Of a stretch of DNA of 64,000 nt, positions 32,963 to 52,847 are shown piece after piece. Position 1 is the first letter of the stretch; each line of letters opens with the position of its first letter. The DNA comes from Peredibacter starrii (GTDB taxonomy: Bacteria; Bdellovibrionota; Bacteriovoracia; Bacteriovoracales; Bacteriovoracaceae). Where the stretch lies: the NCBI RefSeq assembly GCF_034259205.1, contig NZ_CP139487.1, positions 3,906,001 to 3,970,000 on the forward strand, given 5' to 3'. The translations under genes were made by a program, and so were the position numbers. The notes under the pieces were generated by a model. That model saw nothing but the letters and a program-made list of their open reading frames with translations. It was not told the origin of the DNA and made no database searches.

Positions 32963-35842
32963 ATGACAAAAATTCCATTACTGCTCTTAATGTCAGCCTC
33001 TTTGATTAATATCGGATGTCAGCCCGCGGGAATTCCTCTAGGCGGTGAAATCCAAGTAAGCATTAGGAACACAAAGCCCTCTATCTCAAAAGTCATCGTT
33101 CAGAATGATCAGCTCATTATTTCAGGAAAGAATCTAGATTCAGTTACGATTGCAAAAATCACAGGAAGCACTAACCATACTTTTGAAATTGAATCTAAAT
33201 CAGATAACAAACTCGTACTCAATGCAAAGAGTGCTTTAAGTCTTTTGGTCGGTGGAACTTTTGATCTACTAATTGGAAACGCGAAAGCAGACGCGACCTT
33301 CCCTATTTCGTTTGAATTACAAAATGGACAAGTAACGGCAGCTAAACTTCACAGTATGGGTGCAAGTTCTGGTCAGTTTCTTCGTTTCAATGGAACAAAC
33401 TGGGCACCAGCTTCTATTTCTAGCTCACAAGTTTTTGCTGGTGCTTATGATGCAGCAAATGACTCACCTGATATTGTGGCCGCAGGTGGCTCTTCTGGGA
33501 CTTATTATGTAGTTTCAGTAGCTGGTACTCAAGACCTTGGCTCTGGTCTAGTTTCATTTAATGTTGGTGACTGGGTCATTTACAATGGTGCAGTTTGGGA
33601 AAAACTAGCAGTTGGTTCAAACACAGTTTCTTCTTTCAATGGTAGAACTGGATTAGTTGTTCCAACAACAGGTGACTACACATGGAGCATGTTAACTAAA
33701 GCAGCCGGTAAACTTACTGGTTCGAAAGTTTCAGATATCGCTGATGTTGATGTTGCCGGTATTCAAGATGGCGACATTCTTCAATGGAATGCTGGTGGTT
33801 CTAAATGGGAAGTTAATTCTGTTCCTACTCCGACTATCACAGCTGGTTCTATTACAAATACTCAACTTGCAAACAGTGCCGTTGATTCAAACAAGATTGT
33901 TGATGGAACAATTGTTAACGCTGATATTTCGGCGACTGCAGCAATTGATCAGTCAAAAATTAATGGTCTAACAACTGCGCTTAATGGAAAAGAAGCTTCT
34001 CTTCCTACAGGCGGGACAACTGCTCACTATCTCCGTGGTGATAAAACGTGGGTAAACTTCGCTACAACAGTCCTGGGAACTCAGCTTGCTGGTTATACTG
34101 CAGGAACAGCGATTCCTCTTACATCAGCAGACACTATTCCTCAGGCCATTGGAAAACTTGATGCATACATTTCTGCCGTTACGGCCGCTCAAGGTAACTA
34201 TGTTTTAAGAAGTGGCGCTTCGGCCATGACTGGCGACCTTCAAATGGGAGGCAACCAAATCACAGGACTAGGTGCTCCTGGCGCTGATACCGATGCAGCA
34301 ACAAAGAAATATGTTGATGATGCTGTAGCTGGAGTAAGTGTTGGTGGTGGTTCTCAGTGGACGACAAATGGAACTGCCATTCATTACAATACAGGTAGAG
34401 TCGGTGTTGGTACTGCCACACCAAGTACATTATTAGAAGTTAGCACTGGAGCAACTCCTCCAGCAGCCGACGTTAATGTCATCTCGATGGCCATTCAGAG
34501 TAATGTTGACGATATTTCAGGTTCTGGCGCGACCTTCGATAATGGTCTAAAGCAATATCAAATAGGAGTTGCGGATGATGAAGTGCCCGGCATTGGGGGA
34601 GTGAGGCCAGATGGCATCGGTACTGCCATGTCTTTCAAAATGACTCCACTTACGGATGGAACTGATCCATTCACAAGTTACGTTTTCCGTGGTCCAGCTA
34701 CTGCTTCAGATCTATGGATTCATAACGGAAGAATTTTTAACTCAGGAATCTCCATTGGGTATGACCGCCTATCTAATCCGATTCCAACTAATGGTGCCAT
34801 CATCAATGGGAATGTGGGTATCGGAGTTGCGGCCCCTGGTCAAAAATTATCGGTTGCCGGAACTGTTGGCTTAAAATCAACAACTGCAAACTATGTCACT
34901 TTGAGTGCCCCTGCAGGTCTTGCGTCGACTTACGCATTAACATTTCCTGCTGACGATGGTACTGCCAACCAAGTTCTTACAACAGATGGTTCTGGAACAC
35001 TCACTTGGACTACTCCAGCAACTGGTGGTGCTCCTACTGGTTCAGCTGGTGGCGATCTTACAGGTACCTACCCTAACCCAACTATTGCTGCCGGACTTGC
35101 TGCTTCTAAAATTGCTGGTGGTACTGTAGATGATACCGAGTTTGGTTATCTCAATGGTGTGACCTCAAATATTCAAACTCAATTAACTGCAGCGACCCTT
35201 CCATCAGGAGGGACAACTGGTAATTATCTTCGCGGTGATAAAACCTGGCAGTCTCTTTCAACAGATGTTATGGCCAGCGTAATGCTGACTTTCAGTGCTG
35301 TAACTGGATCATCAGTTATCTCTGGTGACTCTGTACTCGGGGCCTTACAAAAACTCCAAGGTCAGATTGATACTCACACAACAACTCTAAGTTCACACGG
35401 GACTTCAATCACAGCAAACACAACCTGGACCAAAACAGGTACAACAGATGTTAAGTATGTTGGAGGTAACGTAGGTATCGCTCGTGATCCAGCTTCCAAT
35501 ACAAAACTAGACGTTGAAGGACAAATTCGTTCAGGGTCTTCTTCAATTACTACTAACGCCATTAACTTCGCTGCTGGTAACACAGTAACGACGACTCATG
35601 ACTGTGGAACAGCAATGACACTTGCAAATATTCGTGACGGTGGTTCTTATACCGTTGTTGTAACAGGTGCGAGTACAACACAATGTTCTTTCAGCACAAC
35701 AACAACGGGTGATGATGCCAACACCGTTACTTATCGATTCCAACCGGCGAACGGTGTAAGAACCGCATCTTCGCACACCATCTATTCTATGCTTAGAGTG
35801 GGAACTATCATTTACGTATCTTGGATCTCTGGGTTCTTATAA
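32963..35842 (+). CDS. Tail-fibre-like lipoprotein, paralogue 1, without S74 chaperone
   Basis: A 959-residue surface fibre candidate. It has a lipoprotein signal (MTKIPLLLLMSASLINIGC). Residues about 30-115 are a conserved, IPT/TIG-like beta domain shared with the three paralogues. The rest is a mosaic of phage tail-fibre modules: GDWVIYNGAVWEK and TGLVVP near 200, and LTGTYPNPTIAAG near 700, typical of trimeric beta-helical fibres. The C-terminus is different from the paralogues: it lacks the SDRRLK chaperone and ends in a roughly 100-residue domain with two Cys. ATG 32963 is chosen; a GTG three codons upstream is possible. Prey or host surface binding is an inference. Confidence 0.8.
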   Translation: MTKIPLLLLMSASLINIGCQPAGIPLGGEIQVSIRNTKPSISKVIVQNDQLIISGKNLDSVTIAKITGSTNHTFEIESKSDNKLVLNAKSALSLLVGGTFDLLIGNAKADATFPISFELQNGQVTAAKLHSMGASSGQFLRFNGTNWAPASISSSQVFAGAYDAANDSPDIVAAGGSSGTYYVVSVAGTQDLGSGLVSFNVGDWVIYNGAVWEKLAVGSNTVSSFNGRTGLVVPTTGDYTWSMLTKAAGKLTGSKVSDIADVDVAGIQDGDILQWNAGGSKWEVNSVPTPTITAGSITNTQLANSAVDSNKIVDGTIVNADISATAAIDQSKINGLTTALNGKEASLPTGGTTAHYLRGDKTWVNFATTVLGTQLAGYTAGTAIPLTSADTIPQAIGKLDAYISAVTAAQGNYVLRSGASAMTGDLQMGGNQITGLGAPGADTDAATKKYVDDAVAGVSVGGGSQWTTNGTAIHYNTGRVGVGTATPSTLLEVSTGATPPAADVNVISMAIQSNVDDISGSGATFDNGLKQYQIGVADDEVPGIGGVRPDGIGTAMSFKMTPLTDGTDPFTSYVFRGPATASDLWIHNGRIFNSGISIGYDRLSNPIPTNGAIINGNVGIGVAAPGQKLSVAGTVGLKSTTANYVTLSAPAGLASTYALTFPADDGTANQVLTTDGSGTLTWTTPATGGAPTGSAGGDLTGTYPNPTIAAGLAASKIAGGTVDDTEFGYLNGVTSNIQTQLTAATLPSGGTTGNYLRGDKTWQSLSTDVMASVMLTFSAVTGSSVISGDSVLGALQKLQGQIDTHTTTLSSHGTSITANTTWTKTGTTDVKYVGGNVGIARDPASNTKLDVEGQIRSGSSSITTNAINFAAGNTVTTTHDCGTAMTLANIRDGGSYTVVVTGASTTQCSFSTTTTGDDANTVTYRFQPANGVRTASSHTIYSMLRVGTIIYVSWISGFL

Positions 35843-35888
35843 AATAGAACCTTTTCCCCTCTGGCTTAAGGCATTCTAAATAATATTT

Positions 35889-35906
35889 CTCCAATGAAAG
35901 TTGGAG
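35889..35906. other. Short stem-loop after fibre gene 1
   Basis: CTCCAA-TGAAAG-TTGGAG, a 6-bp stem 47 bases after the fibre 1 stop. No T-run follows, so it is at best a weak terminator. The rest of this 142-base gap shows a possible TCCGATAA (35946) before the propeller gene but no good -35. Confidence 0.3.
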
Positions 35907-35984
35907 CGATATTACAAAAACCCAAAAAATCTTGATCTGAAAAAATCCGATAAATCATTGTTAATCAATTAACAGGACAATGAT

Positions 35985-38900
35985 GTGCCTTTGTTTTGGA
36001 TTTTATTATTACTCATTTCATTTCCAGCTCTGAGTTTCAGATCCAATGTTGGTTTTTGGAAAGCGACACCCATTGAGGCCTGTACTTTTGGACCTAACAT
36101 CCAAGTAAGCGGAACATCGGCAAACGTTGCATCGATCGTAACTGATGGTAGCACTACCTTTATTGGGGGAACTTTCACGAGCGTGAATGGTGTCCCTCGA
36201 AATAGAATTGCAGCTTTTGATAACAACTGGAACCTCCTCCCTTTTAATCCAAATCTTAATAGTGATGTAAAGAGTATGAAAATCTCTGGATCAACTCTCT
36301 TTATCGCCGGGGGTGTAACCAACATCGGCGATCACGTGAATTCACGTGGAGCCGAGATGACCGTAGGCGGATTACTCAACAAAACCTTCCCTACTGTTGA
36401 TGGTTCCGTAGATGCTGTAATTTCGGACGGCTCTGGTGGTTGGTTTATCGGTGGAAATTTTTCTAACGTAGGTGGAGTGTCCAGAACAAGACTCGCGAGG
36501 ATTAATTCAGACGGAACCCTTCATTCCTTCAACCCGGCCCCAGATGGGAAAGTGGTATCATTAAAACTTGATGGCACTACACTCTATGTGGGGGGGGACT
36601 TTAACAACATTGCAGGTGTGGCAAGAGGAAGGATTGCAAGTTTTGACATCTCAACAGATACGATCACTTCTTTCAATCCCAGAATGAATAGTACAGTTTC
36701 ATCATTACTCGTAAATGGAACAACTCTCTACGTGGGTGGTTATTTTAATAATATTGGGTCATTCATTTCAACCAATGCGGCAATTTCAACTAGCGCAGGA
36801 ATTGTGAATCCATCTTCACCTGTCTTTAACACTTCCCCATCTGTCATCATTCCGGATGGTGTCGGAGGTTGGTATGTGGGAGGAGGTTTTACAACCGTAA
36901 ATTCAGTTACTCGTAACCGCCTGGCCCGGATCAACGCCGACGGTACACTTCACAGTTTTGCTGCAAGTGTAGATGGTCCAGTGAATACGATGCTTCTTGA
37001 TGGAACAACTTTATATATTGGTGGGCAGTTTACAACAGTCGCTGGATCCTCAAGAAATAAGGTCGCAGCGATCGATACGAGTACGGGAACAGTTACGAGT
37101 TTCATTGCAAATGCAAGCGGGACGCAGTTGAACGCATTGGCAAAATCTGGCAATACTCTCTATATCGGAGGAGTTTTCACAGCAATCAATGGAATAAACA
37201 GGCAAAACTTTGCAGCGATTGATGTCACAACCAGTACTTTAACGACTTTCAATCCGAGTGTACCAGGAATAGTTAACGAATTCCTTTTGGATGGCACTAA
37301 TCTCTACGTGGGAGGTGCCTTTTCGACAATGGCCGGCACCGCCAGAAGTAATATAGGACTTTTTGATCTTTCCACTAATACCCTAAACTCAACTTTCAAA
37401 CCGGTAATCACCGGATTAGTAAGTGATATGGTGTTGAACGCCGGCTCACTCTACGTTGCCGGGAGTTTTTCAAATATCGATGCAAGCAGCAGAAGTCATC
37501 TGGCCTCACTAAATGCGACAACCGGTGCAGTCAACTCCTTTGCCCCCGTTATCGATGAACAAATTTTTGATCTGTATTTAGAAGGAACTACCTTATACGT
37601 TGGAGGACAATTTACTACGATAGATAATCAGCCAAGAGCGAGAGTTGCAGCCTTCGAAATTTCAACCGGAAACCTCACAAGTTTTAATCCTGGGCTTAAC
37701 AGCAGCACAAATGCAATCGCAGTCAGTGCTGGTAATATCATGATAGGTGGAAACTTCGCAGTCGTAGGAGGAACATCAAGGCTTAATCTCGCCGCTTTAA
37801 ACAAAAATGACGGAACTGTTTTAAGCTTTAACCCTAATCCTAGTAGTGCAGTCTACACCACTCACCTTGAGGGATCGACCTTATATTTTGGCGGAGCGTT
37901 TTTAAAATTTAATGGTGCAAGTCTGAGATACCTTGCTGCGGCTAATGCGGTCACGGGGGCCGATACTGGATTTGTTTCACAGGCCAATAATGTGGTTCGC
38001 TCTATTCTAAAAGTCGGAACGACTCTTTACGTTGCAGGATTATTTACTTCAATGAAAAGTGTGACTCGTAATAAAGTGGCAGCTTTCAATCTATCAACAG
38101 AGGCCATCCTTCCTTTTGATCCAAACGTTGGTACTACTGGTGAAATTGTCTATTCCCTGGCCTCTGATGGAGCAAGTCTCTTTATCGGGGGTGAACTTAC
38201 CAGTGTTGCAGGTGTAGAAAGAAATAAATTCGCTTCAGTGAATTTAACCACTGGGGCACTAAATACTCTCACAGCTGAAGCGAATGATAATATTCTGAGC
38301 ATGGCGTATGATGGAAAGTTATATATTGGAGGCACATTCACATCTATTGGTGGAATTTACCGAGGACATGTCGCAGCTTTCGATATTCCTTCAGGTAATC
38401 TCACCAATTTCCATCCAAATGCTGATGACGTAGTCTGGACCATTGATGCCAGTGGTGGTCTGGTTTATCTTGGTGGCGGTTTTTCTAACGTCGGAGGAAC
38501 AGCAAGATCAAGATTAGCCGCTGTAGACGCAACGACAGGTGCCCTAGATTCATTTAATGCCGGAACGATCAATTCAACAAAATTGCAAGTTCTGACAGTT
38601 TCAGGAAATAATCTCTTCATCGGTGGGGATTTTACGACAGTTAACAGTACATCCCGAAGTAGGGTTGCAGCCTTCGACATTACGACAAAAACTTTAACTG
38701 GTTTCAATCCTAACGTTACCGGAGGCACGGGAGGAATCGTTTCTGATCTTCACGCATATGGGACAACCTTGTTCATTGGAGGAAATTTTACGAACGTTGG
38801 AGGAACTGCCCGTGGGAACTTGGCCCAAGTAGATATCGGTACTTCGACTCTTACAGCATTAAATTCATCAACTGTGGGTAATGTTAGCGAGATTTTCATT

Positions 38901-39134
38901 CACAATGACACACTCTACATTGGTGGCTCGATGACTACCTTAATGGGAAGTGCACGACCAAATTTTGGGATGATAGATTTGCTAACCAACACCTTGAAAC
39001 CTCAACCAGTGACTCCCGGCGGATTTATAGGGTCGATTGCGTCCGTGGGGACTTCTATCGCTGTTGGTGGTCAATTTACGGCCTTCAATGGCAACCCCAG
39101 TCGCGTTCGTTTAGCGGCATTCACCTGCCCTTAA
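35985..39134 (+). CDS. Giant secreted beta-propeller repeat protein (DUF5122/delta-60-like)
   Basis: A 1049-residue exported protein. The GTG start at 35985 has AGGA seven bases upstream and opens a signal peptide (MPLFWILLLLISFPALS). The mature protein is about twenty repeats of 40-50 residues built on G-TLY-V/I-GG-F-(T/N)xVxGxxRxxLAAFDxxT, followed by FNPN. This matches the DUF5122/delta-60 propeller repeats. The repeats are diverged from each other, so they are not recent copies. Such domains are usually extracellular binding platforms. It lies in the fibre array, transcribed the same way. Confidence 0.82.
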   Translation: MPLFWILLLLISFPALSFRSNVGFWKATPIEACTFGPNIQVSGTSANVASIVTDGSTTFIGGTFTSVNGVPRNRIAAFDNNWNLLPFNPNLNSDVKSMKISGSTLFIAGGVTNIGDHVNSRGAEMTVGGLLNKTFPTVDGSVDAVISDGSGGWFIGGNFSNVGGVSRTRLARINSDGTLHSFNPAPDGKVVSLKLDGTTLYVGGDFNNIAGVARGRIASFDISTDTITSFNPRMNSTVSSLLVNGTTLYVGGYFNNIGSFISTNAAISTSAGIVNPSSPVFNTSPSVIIPDGVGGWYVGGGFTTVNSVTRNRLARINADGTLHSFAASVDGPVNTMLLDGTTLYIGGQFTTVAGSSRNKVAAIDTSTGTVTSFIANASGTQLNALAKSGNTLYIGGVFTAINGINRQNFAAIDVTTSTLTTFNPSVPGIVNEFLLDGTNLYVGGAFSTMAGTARSNIGLFDLSTNTLNSTFKPVITGLVSDMVLNAGSLYVAGSFSNIDASSRSHLASLNATTGAVNSFAPVIDEQIFDLYLEGTTLYVGGQFTTIDNQPRARVAAFEISTGNLTSFNPGLNSSTNAIAVSAGNIMIGGNFAVVGGTSRLNLAALNKNDGTVLSFNPNPSSAVYTTHLEGSTLYFGGAFLKFNGASLRYLAAANAVTGADTGFVSQANNVVRSILKVGTTLYVAGLFTSMKSVTRNKVAAFNLSTEAILPFDPNVGTTGEIVYSLASDGASLFIGGELTSVAGVERNKFASVNLTTGALNTLTAEANDNILSMAYDGKLYIGGTFTSIGGIYRGHVAAFDIPSGNLTNFHPNADDVVWTIDASGGLVYLGGGFSNVGGTARSRLAAVDATTGALDSFNAGTINSTKLQVLTVSGNNLFIGGDFTTVNSTSRSRVAAFDITTKTLTGFNPNVTGGTGGIVSDLHAYGTTLFIGGNFTNVGGTARGNLAQVDIGTSTLTALNSSTVGNVSEIFIHNDTLYIGGSMTTLMGSARPNFGMIDLLTNTLKPQPVTPGGFIGSIASVGTSIAVGGQFTAFNGNPSRVRLAAFTCP

Positions 39135-39892
39135 TCATCAATCCTATCGTATCGACAGCCCCAAATGAGTGCTCCAACGACTAAGATATTCTCTTCATTA
39201 AACTTTGGATCATTAAGTGGACCGAACTCCGAAATTTGAGTTGGGCAATATGCAAACTCTGGAAACACAGATTCAAAATCGTCATCATCACTAAGAACTT
39301 TCAGAGCAACATCTCTTACAACTTTCTCTTCGAGTCTTCCGGCATTGTACTCTTTCAGAGCGAGCTCATAAGTTGTGAAGTACTTCACTGCTGAAGCCGG
39401 GACAGCTCTATTTTTAACAATATGAATATAGCTTGCAAGAATGCGATCAGGATATTCTTTGATAATGTTATCGTAGATCTCAGGATCATCTCCCACATCA
39501 TCCCCCATCAGGATAAATTGATCTGTAGTTGAATCAATCACCTTTTTAATAGCACCGGTTTTATATTCCATGTGATCAGGACGATTAAAGTTACTATTGA
39601 GAATAACGTCGTTGTGTTGAATCTGATGTTTCTCCATCAAAGACACAACTTTGCCTTTAAGAATTTCTGGAGAAGAAGAAACAACTGTAAGACCATTCAC
39701 ATAACTTCTCGTTCCTGCAAGAAACTCAGGAATTCCGGCATAGACCTCTTTTCTGGCAGTCGCATATCCCACTGATTCAACCAAGTCACCGGAGTTCGTG
39801 ATTTTGATCGTGTCATCTAAATCACTAATGATCTGAATTCCAGCGAAGGCATTAAAAGAAAGAAGCGCAGAGAGAACTAAGATCTTTTTCAT
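39131..39892 (-). CDS. Secreted APP1-type phosphatidate phosphatase (DUF2183, HAD-like)
   Basis: A 253-residue exported protein with a signal peptide (MKKILVLSALLSFNAFA). The HAD-type motif D24-L-D26-D-T28 (IISDLDDTIKIT) opens the catalytic core, SSSPE is motif II, and ILMGDDVGDDPEIYD is the acidic motif III/IV. This pattern fits the APP1/DUF2183 phosphatidate phosphatase family; the actual substrate is unknown. A periplasmic place is inferred from the signal peptide. Its TAA shares bases with the TAA of the convergent propeller gene. Confidence 0.82.
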   Translation of the reverse strand: MKKILVLSALLSFNAFAGIQIISDLDDTIKITNSGDLVESVGYATARKEVYAGIPEFLAGTRSYVNGLTVVSSSPEILKGKVVSLMEKHQIQHNDVILNSNFNRPDHMEYKTGAIKKVIDSTTDQFILMGDDVGDDPEIYDNIIKEYPDRILASYIHIVKNRAVPASAVKYFTTYELALKEYNAGRLEEKVVRDVALKVLSDDDDFESVFPEFAYCPTQISEFGPLNDPKFNEENILVVGALIWGCRYDRIDD

Positions 39893-39974
39893 AGGAACTC
39901 CAATTAAAAATAATTAACAAGAGTATCCCCTTCCTAACTAAATCCTGACAGAGCGAATGAACTATCTATCAAGG

Positions 39975-40110: not shown

Positions 40111-43100
40111 ATGAAAAAGCATACCATCATTTACTTAATATCCTCCGTGCTTCTACTTACTTCATGTCAGGACGCTGGATTATTAGGTGGTCAAATTTCA
40201 ATTAGCATTAAAGATAGCAAGCCAGAAATCACACAAGTTAAAGTTCAGAATAATCAGCTCATTGTTACAGGAAAAAATTTAGAAAATGTTTCACTCGCAA
40301 AAGTAGAAGGAAGCACGAATCATACTTTCGAAATTGAATCTAAATCTTCGAGTCAAATTGTTCTTAATGCAAAAAGTGCTCTCAGCTTTTTAGTTGGACA
40401 AACTTTCAATCTAATTGTTTCAAATGCACAGGCGGCCGCGACCTTCCCTATTTCATTTGATCTTCAAAATGGACAAGTGACTGCAGCGAAACTTCATCAT
40501 ATGGGTGCGAGTGCGGGACAAGTTCTACAATTTAATGGAACGACTTGGGCGCCTGCAAATGCGGCAAGCTCTCAGGTTTATGCCGGAACATACAATGCAA
40601 CAACTGATAGTCCAAACATTGTGGCCGCTGGCGGCTCAGTTGGTACTTACTACATCGTAACTACAGCTGGTACTCAAGATCTCGGTACCGGTGCAATTAC
40701 CTTTGCTGTAGGTGATTGGGTAATTTTTAACGGAACGTCTTGGGAAAAAGTCGCCATTGGCGGTAATACTGTTTCGAACTTCAACGGACGTACAGGCGCA
40801 GTTGTTCCTCTTGCTAATGATTATTCATGGAGCATGCTTACAAAAGCCGCAGGTAAACTTACAGGTTCAAAACTTTCTGAAATTGCAGATGTTGATGTAA
40901 CCGGAATTCAGGACGGTGACATTATTCAATGGAACGCAGGAGGATCGAAATGGGAAGTGACAGCAGTCCCCGCTCCAACGATCGCAGCTGGTTCCATCTC
41001 AAACACTCAACTTGCTAACAGTGCCGTTGATTCGAATAAAATTGTAGATGGATCAATCGTGAATGCTGATATTTCTGCGACTGCAGCTATTGCACAATCC
41101 AAAATTCAAAACCTCACAACTGACTTAGATAATAAAGAGCCACTTCTGCCGACTGGTGGTACTACTGCTCAATATCTTCGTGGTAATAAAACACTTGCGA
41201 CTCTTGATACTTCTGTCGTGCCAGAAAACGGTAATCAATACTTCACGGCCGCTAGAGTATTAGGAGTGCAGCTCACTGGTTATTCTGCTGGCACGGCCAT
41301 TCCTCTTGCCGCCACAGATACAATTCCGCAGGCACTGGGAAAACTAGAGGCCTACATTGCTTCGATCTCTGCAGTACAAAGTAATTATGTTCTTCTGAAT
41401 GGAACAAGCACTATGGGTGGTGACCTTCAAATGGGTAACCACAAAATTACAGGTCTTGCTGCTCCGGCCGTTAATACAGATGCCGCAACTAAAAAATACG
41501 TTGATGATGCTGTTGCAGGTGTAAGTGGTAGCGTCTCATCACAATGGACAACCAACGGCACGGCCATTCATTACAATACCGGTCGCGTGGGAATTGGAAC
41601 CACAACTCCAAACAATCTACTCGAAGTTAGCACAGGCGCAACACCACCTGCTTCTGATGTAAGTCTTATCTCAATGTCGGTCCAAAGTGATATTACTGAT
41701 TCTGCTTTAGGTGCGACTTTCAACAATGGTCTTAAATCCTATGAAATCGGTGTAAGTGACGATACCATTTTAGATGATTCTGGCTCTGAACCGTCAGGTA
41801 TCGGTTCCGCCATGTCATTTAAAATGACTACTGTATCTGAAACTAGTGGCACGGGTGTGGCCCCTTTTACAAGCTATGTTTTTAGAGGCCCAAGCGCTTC
41901 GAGAGATTTTTGGATTTATAATGGGCGCATTTTTCCAACAGGTATTTCTGTTGGATATGATCGCCTTACAACAATCGCCCCAGTAAACGGTGCCATTTTC
42001 AGCGGTAACGTGGGTATTGGTGTTCCAGCTCCTTCACAAAGATTAGCAGTTGATGGAACTCTGGGTTTAAAATCAACGACGGCAAACTACGTTGTACTAA
42101 AAGCACCTGCTGGTCTGGGTAGCTCTCTCACTTTTAATTTCCCTACTGGTTACGGCTCAAACAACCAAGTACTCACAACTGATGGTTCAGGAAATCTTTC
42201 TTGGACAACACCTGCCGGTGGTGGCGCTCCGACTGGTTCTGCCGGTGGTGACCTAACAGGTACATATCCTAATCCAACAATTGCGGCGGGGCTTGATGCT
42301 GCAAAAATTGGTGGAGGAAGTGTTTCCAGTACTGAGTTTAACTATCTTGATGGTGTGACTTCTTCAATTCAAACTCAATTAACTGGTAAAGAACCAACAA
42401 TCACTGCAGGTACAACTGCGCAGTATATTCGTGGTAACAAATCTCTCGGAAACTTTGATACCGATGTGAATGCGGCACTTTTACCCCTGGGCTTTGCGGC
42501 CTCTGGGGCAGGTGACGTTGGTCCACTAGATTCAATGCAAACCGCTCTAGCGAAACTTCAAGGTCAAATTGATGGCCACGATACTCAGATAGCTTCAGCA
42601 ACTACTTGGGCCAAAACTGGTTCAGACGTTTACTATACAGCTGGTAATGTTGGTATTGGTCTTAATAATCCGGCCGCTAAATTGCACATGCGCGGAGCCG
42701 CTGCTTTCGAAAGTATTTCCGCAGACGGTTCTGGACCAACATTCAGTTTCTGGAAGTCTCGAAACTATGCGGCCACTCAGGATGATGATGAACTTGGATT
42801 TATCAACTTCTATGGTCATGGTGGATCAGGACTACTGAGATCAGCTTATATTGTTGGCAGAACTGATGGAACTCCTACAGCAACTTCTGCTCCAGGTAGT
42901 CTCTCATTTTATACAACATCCGCTGGCGATACAGATTCGACTGAAAAAATGGTTATTACACATGATGGGAAAGTAGGAATTGGCAATCGTTGGCCAGGAT
43001 TTGCACTGGACATTAACAGCTCGTCGTCATTCCAACAAAGAATCTCGCATTATTCAAATAACGACTACGATGGTGCGGCCATCATGATGGTGCGTGGACG

Positions 43101-44154
43101 TGGAACATACGATACCTCAACCGCTGTTCAAAACTCTAACACCATTGGTGGAATGTACTTCAGAGCTTGGGACGGAAGTAATGCCAGCACGACAACTGCT
43201 GCGATGGAAGTGATGTCGACTGAAAATCATTCTGCTACCAACAAAGGTAGTAAGATTTTTTTCCAGACAACTCCTAATGGAACAAATTCTCGCATGGAAA
43301 GAATGGTTATCAATCACAACGGTAATGTGGGGATTGGTGTTACGAACCCTTCTACTAAGCTTGAGGTTTCAGGTGAGATCACTGCGACGACAGTTTCGGC
43401 GACTACGATGTACGCCAATGGATTGGCGGTCAATGGAGTCAATTCCATGAGTGGTGTAATGTCCATTCGTAACACGGCTGCAGATGGTCTATCAGGTGCT
43501 ATCTTCACCGATCAAGCTGCTGCTCAAAAAGGGTTTATTGGCCACATCAATAGCGGTGCTTCAGGATATCCAGTCAACTCCATTACGATGATGGGAGCGG
43601 GAGTTCCGGTGGTCCTTGCCGTAGACTCAAGCGCAAAAGTCACAGTTAGTGGTGCATTGGTAGATATTGCTACCAATTTGAACCTGGCCTCAGGAAAAGT
43701 TTTAGCAATTAACAGCACTCCTATTTGTTCCGCTGCCGGTTGTACATCTTCATCAGATAGACGATTAAAGAGAGACATTCACCCACTCCACGATTCTCTG
43801 CTCAAAATCACTCAACTGAAAGGTGTTCAGTACTACTACATTGATACTCAAAATTTCGGAGAACAACATCAGGTGGGAGTGATCGCTCAGGATGTAGAAA
43901 AAGTATTTCCTGAAGTGGTTAAAACTGATCCTAAAACAGGTCTGAAGTCTGTGGCCTACGATCACTTAGTGGCACCAATTATCGAAGCAATCAAAGAGCT
44001 TCATACAAAAGTGATGGCGTTGGTGACAGCCTCAGACAAGCATTCTCGAGAAATTGCTTCTATCAAAGAAGAGAATAAGCAGCTTAAGTCTGAGAACGCC
44101 TTAATGAAAACATACCTTTGCGAGAAAGACCCTAAGGCGAGCTTCTGTAAGTAA
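40111..44154 (+). CDS. Tail-fibre-like lipoprotein, paralogue 2, with S74 chaperone
   Basis: A 1347-residue lipoprotein (MKKHTIIYLISSVLLLTSC, lipobox LTSC). The shared beta domain and fibre mosaic are followed by a C-terminal peptidase S74 intramolecular chaperone: SDRRLK with Ser1215 and Lys1220, then VGVIAQDVEKVFPEVV and YDHLVAPIIEAIKEL. In endosialidase-type fibres this domain trimerises the shaft and then cuts itself off before the Ser. The Ser and Lys are kept, so self-cleavage is predicted. A coiled coil and YLCxKDP...CK end the protein. The ATG at 40111 is chosen; a TTG at 40081 is less likely. Confidence 0.85.
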   Translation: MKKHTIIYLISSVLLLTSCQDAGLLGGQISISIKDSKPEITQVKVQNNQLIVTGKNLENVSLAKVEGSTNHTFEIESKSSSQIVLNAKSALSFLVGQTFNLIVSNAQAAATFPISFDLQNGQVTAAKLHHMGASAGQVLQFNGTTWAPANAASSQVYAGTYNATTDSPNIVAAGGSVGTYYIVTTAGTQDLGTGAITFAVGDWVIFNGTSWEKVAIGGNTVSNFNGRTGAVVPLANDYSWSMLTKAAGKLTGSKLSEIADVDVTGIQDGDIIQWNAGGSKWEVTAVPAPTIAAGSISNTQLANSAVDSNKIVDGSIVNADISATAAIAQSKIQNLTTDLDNKEPLLPTGGTTAQYLRGNKTLATLDTSVVPENGNQYFTAARVLGVQLTGYSAGTAIPLAATDTIPQALGKLEAYIASISAVQSNYVLLNGTSTMGGDLQMGNHKITGLAAPAVNTDAATKKYVDDAVAGVSGSVSSQWTTNGTAIHYNTGRVGIGTTTPNNLLEVSTGATPPASDVSLISMSVQSDITDSALGATFNNGLKSYEIGVSDDTILDDSGSEPSGIGSAMSFKMTTVSETSGTGVAPFTSYVFRGPSASRDFWIYNGRIFPTGISVGYDRLTTIAPVNGAIFSGNVGIGVPAPSQRLAVDGTLGLKSTTANYVVLKAPAGLGSSLTFNFPTGYGSNNQVLTTDGSGNLSWTTPAGGGAPTGSAGGDLTGTYPNPTIAAGLDAAKIGGGSVSSTEFNYLDGVTSSIQTQLTGKEPTITAGTTAQYIRGNKSLGNFDTDVNAALLPLGFAASGAGDVGPLDSMQTALAKLQGQIDGHDTQIASATTWAKTGSDVYYTAGNVGIGLNNPAAKLHMRGAAAFESISADGSGPTFSFWKSRNYAATQDDDELGFINFYGHGGSGLLRSAYIVGRTDGTPTATSAPGSLSFYTTSAGDTDSTEKMVITHDGKVGIGNRWPGFALDINSSSSFQQRISHYSNNDYDGAAIMMVRGRGTYDTSTAVQNSNTIGGMYFRAWDGSNASTTTAAMEVMSTENHSATNKGSKIFFQTTPNGTNSRMERMVINHNGNVGIGVTNPSTKLEVSGEITATTVSATTMYANGLAVNGVNSMSGVMSIRNTAADGLSGAIFTDQAAAQKGFIGHINSGASGYPVNSITMMGAGVPVVLAVDSSAKVTVSGALVDIATNLNLASGKVLAINSTPICSAAGCTSSSDRRLKRDIHPLHDSLLKITQLKGVQYYYIDTQNFGEQHQVGVIAQDVEKVFPEVVKTDPKTGLKSVAYDHLVAPIIEAIKELHTKVMALVTASDKHSREIASIKEENKQLKSENALMKTYLCEKDPKASFCK

Positions 44155-44277: not shown

Positions 44278-47200
44278 ATGAATAAATACTTAATAACCCT
44301 AGTTTTGATATCACTGCTTACTCTGGCCGGTTGTCAGGACAGCTCCATGTTGGGCGGTAAGATCTCAGTCTCAATCAAAGACAGTAAACCTGCGATCACT
44401 TCAGTTAAAGTACAAAATGATCAGCTTATTGTTAGTGGAAAAAATCTCAGCAAAGTTTCTACCGCCAAAATCGAAGGCAGCTCAAATCATATTTTTGATA
44501 TCGAAACTAAAACTGACGGACAGTTAATCCTCAATGCGAAAAGCGCATTGAATATCTTGGTTGGCCAAACTCTCAATCTGATTGTTTCGAGTGCGAATGC
44601 GAGTGCAACATTTCCTATTAGCTTTGAATTACAAAACGGACAGGTCACGGCCGTGAAGCTCCACCATATGGGAGCATCAACAGGACAAGTACTTCGCTTC
44701 AACGGGACTAACTGGGCCCCAGCTTCGTTTTCAAGCTCACAAATTTTTGCTGGTGCTTACGACGCTTCAACTGATTCGCCCGACATCGTTTCTATTGGTG
44801 GTGCTTCTGGTACTTACTACATCGTAACAGTTGCCGGCTCTCAGGATCTAGGTTCTGGCATGGAATCATTCGCTGTGGGTGATTGGGTTATTTTTAACGG
44901 TTCGACTTGGGCAAAAGTTGAAGTTGGAACAAATACGGTCTCAGGATTTAACGGAAGGACTGGACTAGTTGTTCCTCTGGCCAATGACTACTCGTGGAGC
45001 ATGCTCACAAAAGCAGCAGGTAAACTTACAGGTTCGAAAATTTCCGAAATCGCTGACGTTGATGTAGTCGGTATTCAAGATGGGGATATTCTTCAATGGA
45101 ATGTTGCTACATCTAAGTGGGAAGTAAATTCAATTCCTGTTCCTACTATTGCGGCCGGTTCGATTTCAAATACACAACTCGCCAACAGTGCAGTCGATTC
45201 AAACAAGATTGTGGATGGATCAATTGTGAATGCTGACATTTCAGCAACTGCGGCCATTGCTCAATCTAAAATTCAGAACCTCACGACTGATTTAGGTAAT
45301 AAAGAACCACTACTCCCTACGGGTGGAACGACAGCGCAATACCTTCGTGGTAACAAGACTCTTGCTACTCTTGATACGGCCGTAGTTCCCGAAAATGGAA
45401 ATCTCTATTTCACACCAGCTCGTGTTCTAAGCACGCTCATTACAACATACGCCACAGGTGGCACTGGTGCCATTGCGGTTACTGATACGGTTCCACAGGC
45501 CCTCTCAAAACTTGAAACGAAAACTAATTCATTAGGTAACTACGTTCTTCGAGATGGAACAGCGGCCATGACTGGTGCGCTTCAGATGGGCAACAACAAG
45601 ATTACAGGTCTTGCTACACCTACAGTGAATACAGATGCAGCAACAAAAGCTTATGTAGACTCTGTTGCCGGTGGAGTTTCTTCTCAATGGACAACTAATG
45701 GCTCGGCCATTCATTACAACACAGGTCGTGTGGGAATTGGAACCACGACTCCAAGTACATTATTAGAAATCAGCACAGGTGCTACTCCTCCCGCTGCTGA
45801 TGTAAATGTAATCTCAATGACTGTTCAAAGTAATGTTTCTGACAGTGCAGGTACTGGCGCCGATTATGATAATGGACCAAAACTTTATCAAATTGGCGTT
45901 GGTGATGATCAATTGAAAGATCCAACAGGGGACACCCCAACTGGAATTGGTACTGCCATGTCATTTAAAATGACTCCTTTCACTGATACTGCTGGAAGCG
46001 GAGCTGAGTCGTTCACCAGTTACGTTTTTAGAGGTCCAACTTCTGCTACTGACTTTTGGGTTCATAATGCAAGAATGCACGCTAAAGGTTTAAACCTTGG
46101 ATATAATCGTCTATCGGATTCTATTCCAACAGATGGGGCCATTATTAGTGGGAACGTGGGTATCGGAGTTGCGGCCCCAGCTCAGAAACTATCTGTTGGT
46201 GGCGCAGTTGGTTTAAAATCTACCAACACAAACTATGTAACACTGAGCGCACCTGCGGCCCTTGCATCTTCTTACGCACTAATTTTTCCTGCTGATGATG
46301 GAGATGCTAACCAAGTTCTAACGACTAATGGTTCAGGCGTTTTGTCATGGACTACTCCTGCAGGCGGCGGCGGTGGAGCCCCAACTGGTTCAGCCGGTGG
46401 AGATCTAACTGGAACTTATCCTAACCCAACAATCGCAGCAGGACTTGATGCGACTAAGATTGGTGGAGGAGCGATTTCAAATACTGAATACAGCTACCTT
46501 GATGGCGTGACTTCAAATATTCAAACGCAACTTTCTGGCAAAGAACCAGCAATCACCGCAGGTACTACTGCTCAATATCTTCGCGGTAACAAAACTCTAG
46601 GAACATTTGATACTGACGTTGTAGCCGCACTTCTTCCTTTAGGCTTCGCTGCTTCCGGTGCAGGCGACGTTGGCCCGCTAGATTCAATGCAAACCGCTCT
46701 CGCTAAACTCCAAGGTCAAATCGATGGCCATGATACGCAAATTGCATCTGCCACTACATGGAGCAAAACAGGCAGTGACGTTTATTACACTGCTGGGAAT
46801 GTGGGAATTGGTCTGAATAATCCTTCGACCAAATTCCATATGAGAGGACCAGCGGCCTTTGAGAGTATTTCTAATGATAGCTCTGGTTCAACTTTCAGTT
46901 TCTGGAAATCACGAAACTTTACCGCTACTCAAGATGGAGATGAATTAGGTTTTATCAGCTTTGTTGGTCACGACGGTTCAGACCTTCGACGATCTGCTTA
47001 TATTCTTTCTCAAACAGAAGGAACACCGACCACCGGTTCAGCTTCCGGTAATATCAGTTTTCACACTACTTCAACTGGAGCAGCTGATAGTACGGAAAAA
47101 ATGAGAATCACGGCCGATGGGTATGTTGGTATTGGACTCACAACTCCAGCCACTAAGTTCGAGGTTAATGGAAGTATCAAAATTGGTAATAGTAACGAAG

Positions 47201-48540
47201 TATGTACTGCTGCACTCGCAGGTGCCATTCGCTATGCTGGATCTGCTACAGAATTTTGTAACGGTGTAAACTGGCTTGGATTAGGTAATAATGAAGCCAT
47301 TCCGGCCAGTACAACTCTTCTCATGAAAACATGTCCTAGTGACTGGACTGATATTGGCGCTGTTGGCACCGGTCCAAATCTTGCTACATGTAATGGAACT
47401 GCCTGTCGCATGTGTACTAGCCCAGCTTCACCAAGTGCCATTCCCTCCTCTTCTATTTTGTTGATGGATAAGTGTCCAGTTAGTTGGACTACTCTTTCTC
47501 GTGCCACAGGTCCTGGTTCTGCTGGAGTTACAAATGCCCTTTTTAGCTCTTGTCAGAGCCCCGCGATTGCAACGGCTCTTCCAAGCAGAGTAAAAATAAT
47601 TGCTTCATCATGTCCTACCAATTGGCAAGATCTAGGTGCTACTGGTCCTGGACCAGCATCAGTTACCTGTTCCGGAATATCTTGTCGTATGTGTGAAGTC
47701 GGTGCGGCTTCAACAAATTTGTATATATCTCCTGGTGGATCAGCAACTTCAGACGGTGAAACACTTACTCTTCGGGCAGGTAATGGTGGAACAACAAGCG
47801 GAAAAGGAGGAACTGCAATGCTACTTGGCGGTGCAGGAATTGAAGGAGACGGCGGCGACGTAACAATTACTGCAGGCCCTGGATGGACAGCAACAACTCT
47901 AGATAGGGCCGGAGGAAATGTGACGATCACCGGTGGTGATGGTGGATTCAGTTCAGCAACTGGTAACGGTGGCCATGTGACTCTTTCTGGAGGAACTCCA
48001 TATGGAGCGGGAGTTAAAGGTCAGGTTAAAATCAATAGCGATCTTAATATTGCATCTACCTATGCTCTTCTGATTGCTGACGTTCCAGTTTGTACATCAT
48101 CAGGCTGTACTTCTTCTTCTGACAGGAGACTTAAGAAAGACATTCATCCTCTTGAAAACTCTCTACTTAAAATCACTCAGCTTCAAGGTGTTGAGTACTA
48201 CTACATTGATGCTAAAAAATTCGGCAAACAGCGCCAGGTGGGTGTGATCGCTCAGGATGTTGAAAAAGTATTTCCTGAAGTGGTTAAGACAGATTCTAAA
48301 ACTGGATTTAAGTCAGTCGCTTACGATCACTTAGTGGCCCCAATTATCGAAGCCATCAAAGAACTTCTTGGAATGACGAAAGAGAATACCCGCGCAATTG
48401 CCTCTATCAAAGAAGAAAACAAAGAACTCAAAACTAGGCTCAACAGAGCTGAAGAGAAGAACAAGAAGCTTGAAGAGGAAAATTCTGCCGTTAAGGCCTA
48501 TCTATGTCAGAAAGATCCTAAAGCGGGCTTCTGCAAATAG
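44278..48540 (+). CDS. Tail-fibre-like lipoprotein, paralogue 3, with Cys-rich and Gly-rich inserts
   Basis: A 1420-residue lipoprotein (MNKYLITLVLISLLTLAGC, lipobox LAGC). Besides the shared shaft modules, residues about 1005-1143 hold three roughly 45-residue Cys-rich repeats (CPSDWTDIG, CPVSWTTL, CPTNWQDLG). A Gly-rich collagen-like or collar segment (SPGGSATSDGETLTLRAGNGG and following) comes before the C-terminal S74 chaperone, with Ser1281 and Lys1286. The C-terminus ends in a long coiled coil and YLCQKDPKAGFCK. The Cys-rich region is unique in this window and may be a tip domain. Confidence 0.85.
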   Translation: MNKYLITLVLISLLTLAGCQDSSMLGGKISVSIKDSKPAITSVKVQNDQLIVSGKNLSKVSTAKIEGSSNHIFDIETKTDGQLILNAKSALNILVGQTLNLIVSSANASATFPISFELQNGQVTAVKLHHMGASTGQVLRFNGTNWAPASFSSSQIFAGAYDASTDSPDIVSIGGASGTYYIVTVAGSQDLGSGMESFAVGDWVIFNGSTWAKVEVGTNTVSGFNGRTGLVVPLANDYSWSMLTKAAGKLTGSKISEIADVDVVGIQDGDILQWNVATSKWEVNSIPVPTIAAGSISNTQLANSAVDSNKIVDGSIVNADISATAAIAQSKIQNLTTDLGNKEPLLPTGGTTAQYLRGNKTLATLDTAVVPENGNLYFTPARVLSTLITTYATGGTGAIAVTDTVPQALSKLETKTNSLGNYVLRDGTAAMTGALQMGNNKITGLATPTVNTDAATKAYVDSVAGGVSSQWTTNGSAIHYNTGRVGIGTTTPSTLLEISTGATPPAADVNVISMTVQSNVSDSAGTGADYDNGPKLYQIGVGDDQLKDPTGDTPTGIGTAMSFKMTPFTDTAGSGAESFTSYVFRGPTSATDFWVHNARMHAKGLNLGYNRLSDSIPTDGAIISGNVGIGVAAPAQKLSVGGAVGLKSTNTNYVTLSAPAALASSYALIFPADDGDANQVLTTNGSGVLSWTTPAGGGGGAPTGSAGGDLTGTYPNPTIAAGLDATKIGGGAISNTEYSYLDGVTSNIQTQLSGKEPAITAGTTAQYLRGNKTLGTFDTDVVAALLPLGFAASGAGDVGPLDSMQTALAKLQGQIDGHDTQIASATTWSKTGSDVYYTAGNVGIGLNNPSTKFHMRGPAAFESISNDSSGSTFSFWKSRNFTATQDGDELGFISFVGHDGSDLRRSAYILSQTEGTPTTGSASGNISFHTTSTGAADSTEKMRITADGYVGIGLTTPATKFEVNGSIKIGNSNEVCTAALAGAIRYAGSATEFCNGVNWLGLGNNEAIPASTTLLMKTCPSDWTDIGAVGTGPNLATCNGTACRMCTSPASPSAIPSSSILLMDKCPVSWTTLSRATGPGSAGVTNALFSSCQSPAIATALPSRVKIIASSCPTNWQDLGATGPGPASVTCSGISCRMCEVGAASTNLYISPGGSATSDGETLTLRAGNGGTTSGKGGTAMLLGGAGIEGDGGDVTITAGPGWTATTLDRAGGNVTITGGDGGFSSATGNGGHVTLSGGTPYGAGVKGQVKINSDLNIASTYALLIADVPVCTSSGCTSSSDRRLKKDIHPLENSLLKITQLQGVEYYYIDAKKFGKQRQVGVIAQDVEKVFPEVVKTDSKTGFKSVAYDHLVAPIIEAIKELLGMTKENTRAIASIKEENKELKTRLNRAEEKNKKLEEENSAVKAYLCQKDPKAGFCK

Positions 48541-48624
48541 AACGTCTTAAATGCTTAGTAACCGCCGCTCCTGGCTGCTCCATAAGATAATTAATGATTA
48601 TCGCCCTAAGATATTAATTTTCTT

Positions 48625-48651
48625 TAAATAAATCTTCATTTTGGTCGATAT
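48625..48651 (+). promoter_or_regulatory. Sigma-28 (FliA)-like promoter of fibre gene 4
   Basis: TAAA at 48625-48628, then GTCGATAT at 48644-48651, an offset of 19. It sits directly before the ATG at 48660, so the leader would be very short or the promoter wrongly placed. Confidence 0.45.
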
Positions 48652-48659
48652 GTAAAGTA

Positions 48660-51600
48660 ATGCTTACGAGACCGCATATTCTCTTATTCATTTCCCTTAT
48701 TTTTATGTTCGCTTCCTGTCAGGACGCTTCTGTATTATTAGGGAAGATTGATGTCAGAGTTAAAGGTAATAACAAAAAGCCTTCCATTGAGAGTGTTAAA
48801 GTTCAGAACGATCAATTGATCGTGAGTGGCAATTTTTTAGATACTGTCACCAAAGCAGAAATACAAGGTCATCAATTTCAAATCGCATCTAAAACTTCTG
48901 AGAAGCTTGTTCTCAATGCCTCATCCGCTTTTAATTTTTTAGTTGGTAGTGCACTTAATCTCGTTGTCTCTAATGCTGAAGCTTCGGCCACATTTCCTCT
49001 TAGTTTTGAATTACAAAACGGACAAGTGACTGCAAACAAGCTTCATCACATGGGAGCTTCAACTGGAGACTTCTTACAATTCAATGGCTCGACCTGGGCA
49101 CCAGCTTCTATTTCAACTAACCAGGTTTATGTTGGAACATACAACGCCACAACCGATACACCGAATCTTTCAGGAGCAGTTGCTTCGGCAGGTACGTACT
49201 ATATTGTGACCACTGCAGGTACTCAGGATTTGGGTACCGGCCCAACAAACTTCGCTGTCGGCGATTGGGTCATTTCAGATGGAACCAACTGGAGTAAAGT
49301 TTCCGTTGGTACAAATACAGTTTCAAATTTTAATGGCCGCACAGGTGTGGTGGTTCCACTCTCAGGTGATTATTCTTGGAGCATGCTTACTAAAGCCGCT
49401 GGCAAACTAACTGGATCGAAGCTTCAAGAAATTGCAGATGTAGATGTAGCGGGAATTCAGGATCAAGACATTCTTCAGTGGAACGCTTCGAATTCAAAAT
49501 GGGAAGTGACTTCAGTTCCGGCACCAACGATTGGTGCAGGCACAATTAGTAACACTCAAATTGCCAGCGGTGCGATTGATTCCAGTAAGATTATTGATGG
49601 CTCGATTGTAAATGCTGACATCTCCGCAACTGCTGCTATTGATCAGTCTAAGATCAGTAACCTCACTACAGATCTAGGAAACAAAGAACCTAAGATTACT
49701 GCGGGCACTGTTTCTCAATACTGGAGTGGAAATAAGACATGGCAGGATTTAAATACCGCTGTGATTGGTTCAACTCTCACTGGTTATTCAGCTTCTGCAG
49801 GTGCAATTACCGCAGCTGATTCAGTTCTTTCCGCCATTAATAAGCTCAGTGGCAACATTGGATTAGTGGGAGCTTCTCAAGCAAATTATGTCTTAAAAGC
49901 TGGCGACACCATGAGTGGTGCTCTTGCCATGGGAGGAAATAAGATCACAGGTCTTGCTACTCCAACGGCCGGCACTGATGCTGCTACTATGGCCTACGTT
50001 GATTCGAAAGTTGGCGCGGCACCTGGTGATAATTTAGGAAATCACACCGCCACCCAAAATTTATCATTGGGAACAAATAAAATTTTTGCGGGCGATGGTG
50101 CTTGGAATTCACCTTCAATTTCATTTACAAATAATTCGAACACCGGATTTTCAAATAACGGAGGAATCATTCGAATCACAGCGAATGGTGGCCTGGCGGT
50201 GACTCTTTCTGATTCATTGATGCAGTTGAATGGATCATTCGCTCCTTACTTACGTCTGGGTGGAGGAACATTTGGGGCCTCAGGACCGACTTATGCATTT
50301 AATGGCGATACTGATACCGGTATGTTTAATATTTCATCCGATATTCTTGCCTTCACAACTGGTGGAGCTGAGAAAATGCGTATTCTTGGCACTGGTGAAA
50401 TGCTTATTGGAAAAACGACCACTGCTGCTGGAAAACTTGATGTTGCTGGAGACATCGCTTCAGAAGGAAAACTACGTCTCAAATCTGATAATACAAATTA
50501 CGTTGAATTTCGTGCGCCAGCTTCACTTGCCGCCACGACCACTTATACTTTTCCCGCAACAGCAGGTTCAGCCGGCCAAGCACTTACCACTGATGGTGCC
50601 GGCAATCTTTCTTGGTCAGCGGTTGCAGATGGCACTCCGGCCGACGGTTCGATTGGTTATGCAAAATTAAATCTAGCAGATGGTGATATTCCTCTCTCCA
50701 AATTGGCAGGATCGTCAGATGCAACTAAATATCTTAAAGGTGACAAGAGCTGGGGAACATTTATCACTGATGTTCTTGCTTCAACATTTGCTACGGTAAC
50801 TCCATCTAATTCCGCAATTGCTAACGGTGATTCACTTCAAACAGTGGTGAATAAAACTCAAGGGCAGATTAATAATCTTGCTTCTAACTCTCTTAACAAA
50901 ACAGGCACTGATTCCATCACTGGAACACTGACGATCAACGCAACCACTGGTGCTCTCAAAATTCCGGCCACACCATCAGGTGTTGACTTAACCGATGCTG
51001 CGAATGTGCAATACGTTCAAAACTATGTAAGCAACTATGGACAGTGGAACAAGAATGCTTCCGACATCTATTTCAACACTGGTAAAGTAGGAATCGGAAC
51101 TAACACTCCTACAGGTAGATTTGAACTTCAAATCAATACAGATAACTCCGGTGTCACTGACCCAGGTTCTTTCGATGGGATCCATATTTCGAATGCCAAT
51201 TCGACCCCAAACTCTGCGGTGGGATTAAGATTTTATTCCCAAATTTCAGGCGGTGCTACCGCTGGAATTGTAGGCCGTGGCACAGCTTCAGACTCGATGG
51301 ATATGGAGTTTTGGACAGAAGCGCCAGGGACCACTTCACGGACTAATAAGATGATTCTTAAGTCTGATGGTAAGCTCGGTATTGGGACCATGACTCCAGA
51401 ATCAAAACTACATGTAGCTGGCACAGATTTCGCTGGCAGTACAGTTTATGCCTCTCGTTTTGATAACACTCAGACTGGACCATCTCACTGGGGATTAAAA
51501 AGTCGTGGCGCTACAGTAGGAGTTTATGCTCCAGTATTAACCAATGATATTTTGACTTCATTTGGTGCAGGCGGATACTTCGGAACTACAGTGAATGATT

Positions 51601-52847
51601 CTGCAACGGCAGGACATTTATCATTCGCGGCGGAAAGTAACTGGAGTAGCGGAAACACACCTGCTCGCGCGCAGATTACTTTGAACAAAGGTAATAACTC
51701 ATACACCACTCCATTTGCTGTCACCAGTGCAGGATATGTTGGTGTAGGAACTCTTGCTCCTACCAGTCAACTTGAAATAAATTCCACTAACTATTCTTTT
51801 CTTAACATTACGACTACCGATTCAACCAAGTACTCAGCAATGCGACTTTTCACGCAAAGAAATGATGCTACTGAAACCATGGGAAGTGCCAATCCTACCG
51901 GGAACAATAGAGGTTGGGAATTGGCGGGTAATGGAACTGGCCATACATTAAATAGTAAATTCACGATGAACTATTGGGATGGAACTGCCTGGAGTACTCC
52001 TTTCACAATCATTCCAAGTGGGAATGTGGGAATTGGAACAGCATCCCCTATAGGGAAAATGCACATCCAAGGTAGCGTTGATGGCGACGTAGGTAGTTAC
52101 CTTCTTAATTCGGACGATACCGGGACAACCTCTCGAAGTATCTTTTTACTTGGAACCGTTGCTTCAGGTGTTCGGTATGGATACTTATCTCACCAGGGTG
52201 CGGGTTATACTGCAAATGGGGCCCTCAAACCTCGTACCACTGTCCTGACTGGCACAGACAGCGGTGGCCTAAATCTCCTGACAAACCAACAAATGGGATT
52301 CTGGCAAGGTCTGACTGAAATCATGAGAATTCACACCAACGGTAACGTTGGTATCGGTACAGCAGCACCATCTTATAAGCTTCACGTCGTTGGTGATATC
52401 AACACGACAACAGGTCTAAGAGTTAATGGTACGCAAGTCTGTACTAGTGCTGGTTGTACGTCTTCATCTGACCGACGCTTAAAGAAAGACATCCACCCTC
52501 TTCAAGATTCACTACTTAAAATCACTCAGCTTCAAGGTGTGGAATACTTCTATATCGATGAAGCGAAATATGGAAAACAACATCAAGTGGGTGTGATCGC
52601 TCAAGATGTCGAAAAAGTTTTCCCAGAAGTTGTGAAAACAGATTCAAAAACTGGATTCAAGTCAGTTGCCTACGATCACTTAGTGGCCCCCATTATCGAG
52701 GCCATTAAAGAACTTTTTGGAATGACAAAAGAGAACTCTCGCGAAATTGCTTCACTTAAAGAGAAGAACAAAAAGCTTGAAGAAGAGAACGCGGCGATTA
52801 AGGCCTATCTTTGCCAGAAAGATCCAGCAGCACCAATCTGTAATTAA
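48660..52847 (+). CDS. Tail-fibre-like lipoprotein, paralogue 4, with S74 chaperone
   Basis: A 1395-residue lipoprotein (MLTRPHILLFISLIFMFASC, lipobox FASC). The N-terminal beta domain is shared; the middle is the most diverged of the four. Fibre motifs include VGIGTNTPTG, VGIGTASPIGK and VGIGTAAPSYK. The C-terminal S74 chaperone has Ser1270 and Lys1275 in SSDRRLKKDI, then a coiled coil and YLCQKDPAAPIC. The stop is 1 base from the convergent lipoprotein stop, so there is no room for a terminator. Confidence 0.85.
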   Translation: MLTRPHILLFISLIFMFASCQDASVLLGKIDVRVKGNNKKPSIESVKVQNDQLIVSGNFLDTVTKAEIQGHQFQIASKTSEKLVLNASSAFNFLVGSALNLVVSNAEASATFPLSFELQNGQVTANKLHHMGASTGDFLQFNGSTWAPASISTNQVYVGTYNATTDTPNLSGAVASAGTYYIVTTAGTQDLGTGPTNFAVGDWVISDGTNWSKVSVGTNTVSNFNGRTGVVVPLSGDYSWSMLTKAAGKLTGSKLQEIADVDVAGIQDQDILQWNASNSKWEVTSVPAPTIGAGTISNTQIASGAIDSSKIIDGSIVNADISATAAIDQSKISNLTTDLGNKEPKITAGTVSQYWSGNKTWQDLNTAVIGSTLTGYSASAGAITAADSVLSAINKLSGNIGLVGASQANYVLKAGDTMSGALAMGGNKITGLATPTAGTDAATMAYVDSKVGAAPGDNLGNHTATQNLSLGTNKIFAGDGAWNSPSISFTNNSNTGFSNNGGIIRITANGGLAVTLSDSLMQLNGSFAPYLRLGGGTFGASGPTYAFNGDTDTGMFNISSDILAFTTGGAEKMRILGTGEMLIGKTTTAAGKLDVAGDIASEGKLRLKSDNTNYVEFRAPASLAATTTYTFPATAGSAGQALTTDGAGNLSWSAVADGTPADGSIGYAKLNLADGDIPLSKLAGSSDATKYLKGDKSWGTFITDVLASTFATVTPSNSAIANGDSLQTVVNKTQGQINNLASNSLNKTGTDSITGTLTINATTGALKIPATPSGVDLTDAANVQYVQNYVSNYGQWNKNASDIYFNTGKVGIGTNTPTGRFELQINTDNSGVTDPGSFDGIHISNANSTPNSAVGLRFYSQISGGATAGIVGRGTASDSMDMEFWTEAPGTTSRTNKMILKSDGKLGIGTMTPESKLHVAGTDFAGSTVYASRFDNTQTGPSHWGLKSRGATVGVYAPVLTNDILTSFGAGGYFGTTVNDSATAGHLSFAAESNWSSGNTPARAQITLNKGNNSYTTPFAVTSAGYVGVGTLAPTSQLEINSTNYSFLNITTTDSTKYSAMRLFTQRNDATETMGSANPTGNNRGWELAGNGTGHTLNSKFTMNYWDGTAWSTPFTIIPSGNVGIGTASPIGKMHIQGSVDGDVGSYLLNSDDTGTTSRSIFLLGTVASGVRYGYLSHQGAGYTANGALKPRTTVLTGTDSGGLNLLTNQQMGFWQGLTEIMRIHTNGNVGIGTAAPSYKLHVVGDINTTTGLRVNGTQVCTSAGCTSSSDRRLKKDIHPLQDSLLKITQLQGVEYFYIDEAKYGKQHQVGVIAQDVEKVFPEVVKTDSKTGFKSVAYDHLVAPIIEAIKELFGMTKENSREIASLKEKNKKLEEENAAIKAYLCQKDPAAPICN

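Follow-up and report, generated by a model that had tools for sequence, protein, structure and literature searches.

The mosaic adhesive trimer (MAT) fibers of Bdellovibrio bacteriovorus HD100 are trimeric fibers with S74 or other adhesive tips (PMC10769870). The family is defined by a conserved, beta-rich N-domain of ~130 aa that follows the signal peptide in all 21 HD100 MATs, and this domain presumably binds a surface element whose identity is left open (PMC10769870). HD100 MATs with shafts similar to those described here have been detected on the cell surface, and S74 self-cleavage of one member, Bd3182, was seen on a gel and blocked by S782A (PMC10769870). How MAT fibers are anchored on the predator is stated as an open question by the paper that named them, the main text of which never mentions lipoprotein (PMC10769870). 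A lipobox adhesin of HD100, Bd0875, has also been detected on the cell surface (PMC11003981); unlike the fibers described below (P1-P4), it has a von Willebrand/MIDAS domain and neither a phage-type shaft nor S74. Phage long tail fibers with S74 chaperones (PHROG families; 6F45) have a shaft and C-terminal chaperone homologous to those of the P1-P4 array, but attach to the virion, whereas P1-P4 have a lipobox base and sit among housekeeping genes.

The window analyzed here is a stretch of 64,000 nucleotides, positions 3,906,001-3,970,000 of the 4.15 Mb single-contig genome of Peredibacter starrii. Its fiber genes and their surroundings comprise the following features, numbered from the start of the window.

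32963..35842, + strand: P1 lipo-base fiber, without S74 (NS74 type), imperfect lipobox LINIGC at codons 17-22; 962 aa from GTG 32954, 959 aa from ATG
33017..33409, + strand: P1 Cys, base domain and linker (profile A2, E 5e-67)
35546..35839, + strand: P1 tip domain, 98 aa, family A7, also found on MAT-base fibers
35985..39134, + strand: secreted beta-propeller protein (DUF5122/Rax2), between P1 and P2
39131..39892, - strand: APP1-like phosphatase with an N-terminus resembling a signal peptide, between P1 and P2
40111..44154, + strand: P2 lipo-base fiber, 1347 aa, S74, lipobox LLTSC, Cys19
40165..40554, + strand: P2 Cys, base domain and linker (profile A2, E 1e-70)
43753..44151, + strand: P2 S74 chaperone-protease and coiled coil, predicted to cleave itself ahead of S1215 (SDRRLK)
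44278..48540, + strand: P3 lipo-base fiber, 1420 aa, S74, lipobox TLAGC, Cys19
44332..44721, + strand: P3 Cys, base domain and linker, predicted IPT/TIG fold at aa 35-119
48118..48537, + strand: P3 S74 chaperone-protease and coiled coil, Ser = S1281
48660..52847, + strand: P4 lipo-base fiber, 1395 aa, S74, chimeric shaft, lipobox MFASC, Cys20
48717..49103, + strand: P4 Cys, base domain and linker (profile A2, E 7e-64)
50010..51122, + strand: P4 shaft aa 451-821, common to the MAT-base fiber MATN_3054 (69.6% identity)
52467..52844, + strand: P4 S74 chaperone-protease and coiled coil, Ser = S1270
53220..54119, - strand: type IV prepilin with a short MAT-like shaft motif (VGIGTASPGTRLDVAG), without S74, convergent with the array (TIGR02532 21.2 bits, cut-off 16.3)

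An initial annotation had described P1-P4 as four large paralogues lying side by side, with a common N-terminal lipobox and domain but reshuffled shafts. Paralogy was borne out by 60-72% identity across the first ~450 aa of these four genes, all on the + strand, and in each protein the shared domain comes after a Cys located 19-22 residues from the N-terminus. The lipobox of P2, P3 and P4 passes a PS51257-like rule, but that of P1 (INIGC, with N at -3) fails it. P2-P4 are indeed in tandem, with intergenic gaps of ~120 bases, but P1 lies two genes upstream of P2, set apart by the beta-propeller and APP1-like genes. Shaft reshuffling holds for P4, which shares with P1-P3 only its first ~450 residues and the C-terminal S74 block; P1-P3, in contrast, are largely colinear through base and shaft to aa ~850-966 and diverge only beyond that point; their identity is 60-72% up to about residue 850-970. 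P1 is 60-65% identical to P2 and P3 across ~870-960 aa. Peptidase_S74 was found in P2-P4 (E 1e-17 to 3e-19), in each case with SDRRLK as the SDxxxK motif, and is absent from P1; the initial annotation had said nothing of this domain. P3 also contains a Cys-rich insert at aa ~976-1139 (about 47203-47694), with 12 Cys and a repeated CPxxW...TCxGxxCRMC motif, that has no relative among the other fibers. Promoter and terminator scans of the region performed no better than shuffles. Secreted repeat proteins adjoin fiber genes in the window (35985-39134) and elsewhere (L012, 5790-8060 and 8281-11514; L009, 18074-19504), and a GFW motif just past the N-terminus is common to the window beta-propeller and two RCC1-like proteins of L012.

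A profile (A2) of the ~130-residue segment shared by P1-P4 after the Cys brought up eight genes here, and across the phylum 53 of 369 genomes contained members. Most of the positive genomes (47 of 53) belong to the window's own family, and the lipo-base is a Bacteriovoracaceae trait. The only A2 match in the Bdellovibrio family spans the linker alone, as do some matches elsewhere. Two members are interrupted: the eighth lipo-base fiber of this genome (L010, 1063-4058) reads as two ORFs that overlap in different frames, the second of which includes S74, and one in a metagenome-derived genome of the same genus (L002, 9983-14453) is split into two ORFs of 884 and 612 aa, by a break or an assembly error. 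When a strict PS51257-like lipobox rule was applied within the first ~35 residues, after the n/h-region, it was passed by 43 of 51 distinct lipo-base ORFs, and [AGS]C was in place in 49; the same scan found no strict lipobox among 26 MAT-base proteins. This lipobox conservation, together with the homology of shafts and tips, supports the earlier proposal that shafts and tips derived from phage tail fibers were placed on a self-anchoring lipoprotein base.

No named family came up for the base in sequence searches of Pfam, NCBIfam and PDB, and Pfam gave no IPT match. The predicted structure of the base, confident for residues 35-119 of P3 only, aligned by VIA-align with IPT/TIG domains at Z 8-10 and rmsd 2.2-3.4 across 74-83 residues, the top matches being Bacova_02650 (Z 10.0) and SGBP-B (Z 9.7), followed by CGTase, plexin, Met, EBF3 and NFAT. 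Foldseek E-values were weak (2e-3 to 0.1). We assign the predicted base to IPT/TIG at the level of fold only. SGBP-B are lipoproteins of similar Ig-like domains that keep a binding domain off the outer membrane. Those of Bacteroides (7K44, 5E7G) are the closest structural matches of the base (Z 9.7-10.0), but differ from P1-P4 in that they are not fibers and have neither a trimeric shaft nor S74. Beyond aa ~120, confidence in the monomeric P3 model is low; a fold that depends on trimerization would be expected to behave this way, and the result is compatible with such a fold rather than a demonstration of it. Because of this low confidence, the argument for trimerization is one of homology. 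The base family, for which Pfam has no model, is now defined and can be used to find such fibers across Bacteriovoracaceae.

Collectively, these data lead us to infer that P1-P4 are lipid-anchored trimeric fiber adhesins that bind prey, a reading that takes in lipidation, trimerization, surface display, S74 self-cleavage and prey binding and to which we give a probability of roughly 0.62. Once exported by Sec, the protein would be cleaved by signal peptidase II just ahead of the Cys, and the Cys would be lipidated, as the lipobox suggests. The phage-derived shaft would then bring three chains together as a trimer. The S74 domain at the C-terminus of P2-P4 is predicted to guide folding of the trimer and then to cleave itself off before the Ser of SDRRLK, thereby exposing the tip; P1 would instead retain its beta-rich tip. 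Held by three lipids and three IPT/TIG bases, the fiber would stand on the outside of the outer membrane and point its variable shafts and tips away from the cell, where shaft clefts and tips may bind prey glycans. Homology and motifs support each of these putative steps except surface display and prey binding, which are suggested by the precedents of HD100 MATs and Bd0875.

Much of what P1-P4 share with HD100 MATs would also suit a simpler reading, namely that they are ordinary MAT members carrying the MAT N-domain in diverged form. Both have phage-type shafts, S74 (SDxxxK) or non-S74 tips and a large paralogous family, and the MAT N-domain is likewise described as beta-rich and ~130 aa long (PMC10769870). 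Shafts and tips of the array are homologous to the solved MAT chains 8OML, 8OL4, 8OND and 8OJN, and solved MAT structures were the best PDB matches: 8OML (E 2e-14), 8OL4 (2e-7) and 8OND (5e-4) for P2, 8OML (1e-9) for P3 and 8OND (8e-12) for P4, with no match for P1 alone. The tips are those of MATs as well, with SDRRLK-bearing S74 in P2-P4 and, in P1, family A7, which also occurs in HD100. We nonetheless regard this reading as improbable. The MAT N-domain, present in 133 of the 369 phylum genomes and in 12 other genes of this genome, none of them with a lipobox, is absent from P1-P4. When the two N-domain profiles were compared (A2 versus A3, the MAT N-domain), only a 24-column linker after the domain aligned (probability 17.6%); on sequence, P1-P4 fail the MAT N-domain test. 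Furthermore, the lipo-base profile had no significant match in HD100 (best E 0.13), for which we took panel genome G132 because Bd1334 is present there with 100% identity and its S74 domains number exactly 13, as stated for HD100 (PMC10769870). A weak full-length match in HD100 (E 0.78) was rejected as lying inside a MAT-like shaft. Thus, the likeness to MAT fibers drawn in the initial annotation stands for the design and for shafts and tips homologous to crystallized MATs but not for the base, where HD100 MATs have an ordinary signal peptide and a domain non-homologous by sequence, and P1-P4 have a lipobox and a predicted IPT/TIG fold. By these sequence comparisons P1-P4 are MAT-like, yet outside the published MAT definition.

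The phage character of the shafts, which match PHROG tail-fiber families over most of their length and have related modules in 93 viral contigs, might suggest that P1-P4 are tail-fiber genes of a prophage, tailocin or eCIS rather than genes for host surface proteins. We consider this very unlikely, given the lipobox and IPT base, which in viral contigs has no relative beyond its last ~35 residues; the P1 tip has none there. The array is flanked by genes for SAM synthetase, Mur ligase, pyruvate phosphate dikinase, an aminoacyl-tRNA synthetase and an ABC transporter, GC is uniform across the region, and among the neighbors and ORFs checked we saw no phage genes and no tail, baseplate or sheath cluster. 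The fibers offer a natural experiment in how phage receptor-binding modules turn into bacterial surface adhesins. A more serious competitor, though still an unlikely one, concerns orientation and role: the lipid-anchored fibers could lie on the periplasmic face, or could be structural or self-aggregation fibers (of sheath, biofilm or surface attachment) rather than prey adhesins. Outer-membrane lipoproteins without a dedicated export route commonly face the periplasm, and the secreted beta-propeller and RCC1-like proteins that neighbor fiber genes suggest a setting of surface proteins in general. Weighing against it are the length of the fibers, 1300-1400 residues, their divergent tips and shafts of phage receptor-binding type, and the detection outside the cell of both HD100 MATs with similar shafts (PMC10769870) and Bd0875 (PMC11003981). 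Surface-displayed, lipid-anchored prey adhesins therefore remain our preferred reading of P1-P4. A literature search of partial coverage found no description of lipid-anchored MAT fibers. That Bacteriovoracaceae carry shafts and tips of MAT type on what appears to be a lipid anchor makes the question of MAT anchoring directly testable.

P4 is a mosaic of two fiber types. Over residues 20-410 it is close to P3 (65.5% identity) and matches the MAT-base fiber MATN_3054 at shuffled level (28% identity; shuffled null 26%). Identity switches near residue 450, and residues 451-821 are 69.6% identical to MATN_3054 versus 35-42% to P1-P3. Within this segment, residues 451-600 are closest to the MAT-base fiber alone, and residues 601-810 are also common to two other lipo-base fibers of the genome. 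MATN_3054, the clearest exchange partner of P4, lies ~0.9 Mb away. Tips cross bases as well: that of P1 shares 71% identity with one from another genus, the full ORF of which has a MAT base, and its family also occurs on an HD100 fiber with a divergent MAT-like N-terminus. The P1 tip profile had no significant match in PDB, and its single-sequence model, with a pLDDT of 40, was set aside. A tree of 48 S74 domains requires 13 base changes, at least seven of them forced by well-supported branches (lipo label). At the level of sequence, then, chimerism between bases is demonstrated. The exchanges are old, because identity at third positions within the array lies mostly at 30-60%. Recent gene conversion would show as a block where this identity is high, and the array has none apart from a portion of S74, at up to 70%. 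With no recently converted blocks and the partner of P4 ~0.9 Mb off, the suggestion that the array serves as a recombination hub for receptor diversity was not upheld. A tandem duplication giving rise to all four genes was also considered and ruled out for P4, the base of which groups with two bases elsewhere in the genome.

A further base is provided by type IV prepilins. Besides the prepilin convergent with the array, five other genes of the genome, outside the window (L006, 544-5269; L007, 576-1706; L008, 666-2252), have a type IV prepilin-like start, MAT-type shaft motifs and an S74 end, and one of them passes Pfam N_methyl. The pilin profile picks up pilins in general across the phylum and so gives no count of pilin-S74 fusions, and none were described in the literature that our partial search covered. 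S74 on prepilins would put phage-type tips on pili or pseudopili. Homology thus points to a single modular kit of shafts and tips on three bases, namely the lipo-base, the canonical MAT base and the prepilin, the last also carrying S74 in this same genome. Tentatively, and at somewhat less than even odds, we propose that this kit is phage-derived and interchangeable among three unrelated anchors (secreted MAT base, lipid-anchored IPT base and type IV pilin), with both anchor and tip swapped by recombination. If so, the same recognition tips could be mounted either at the outer membrane or on pili that retract.
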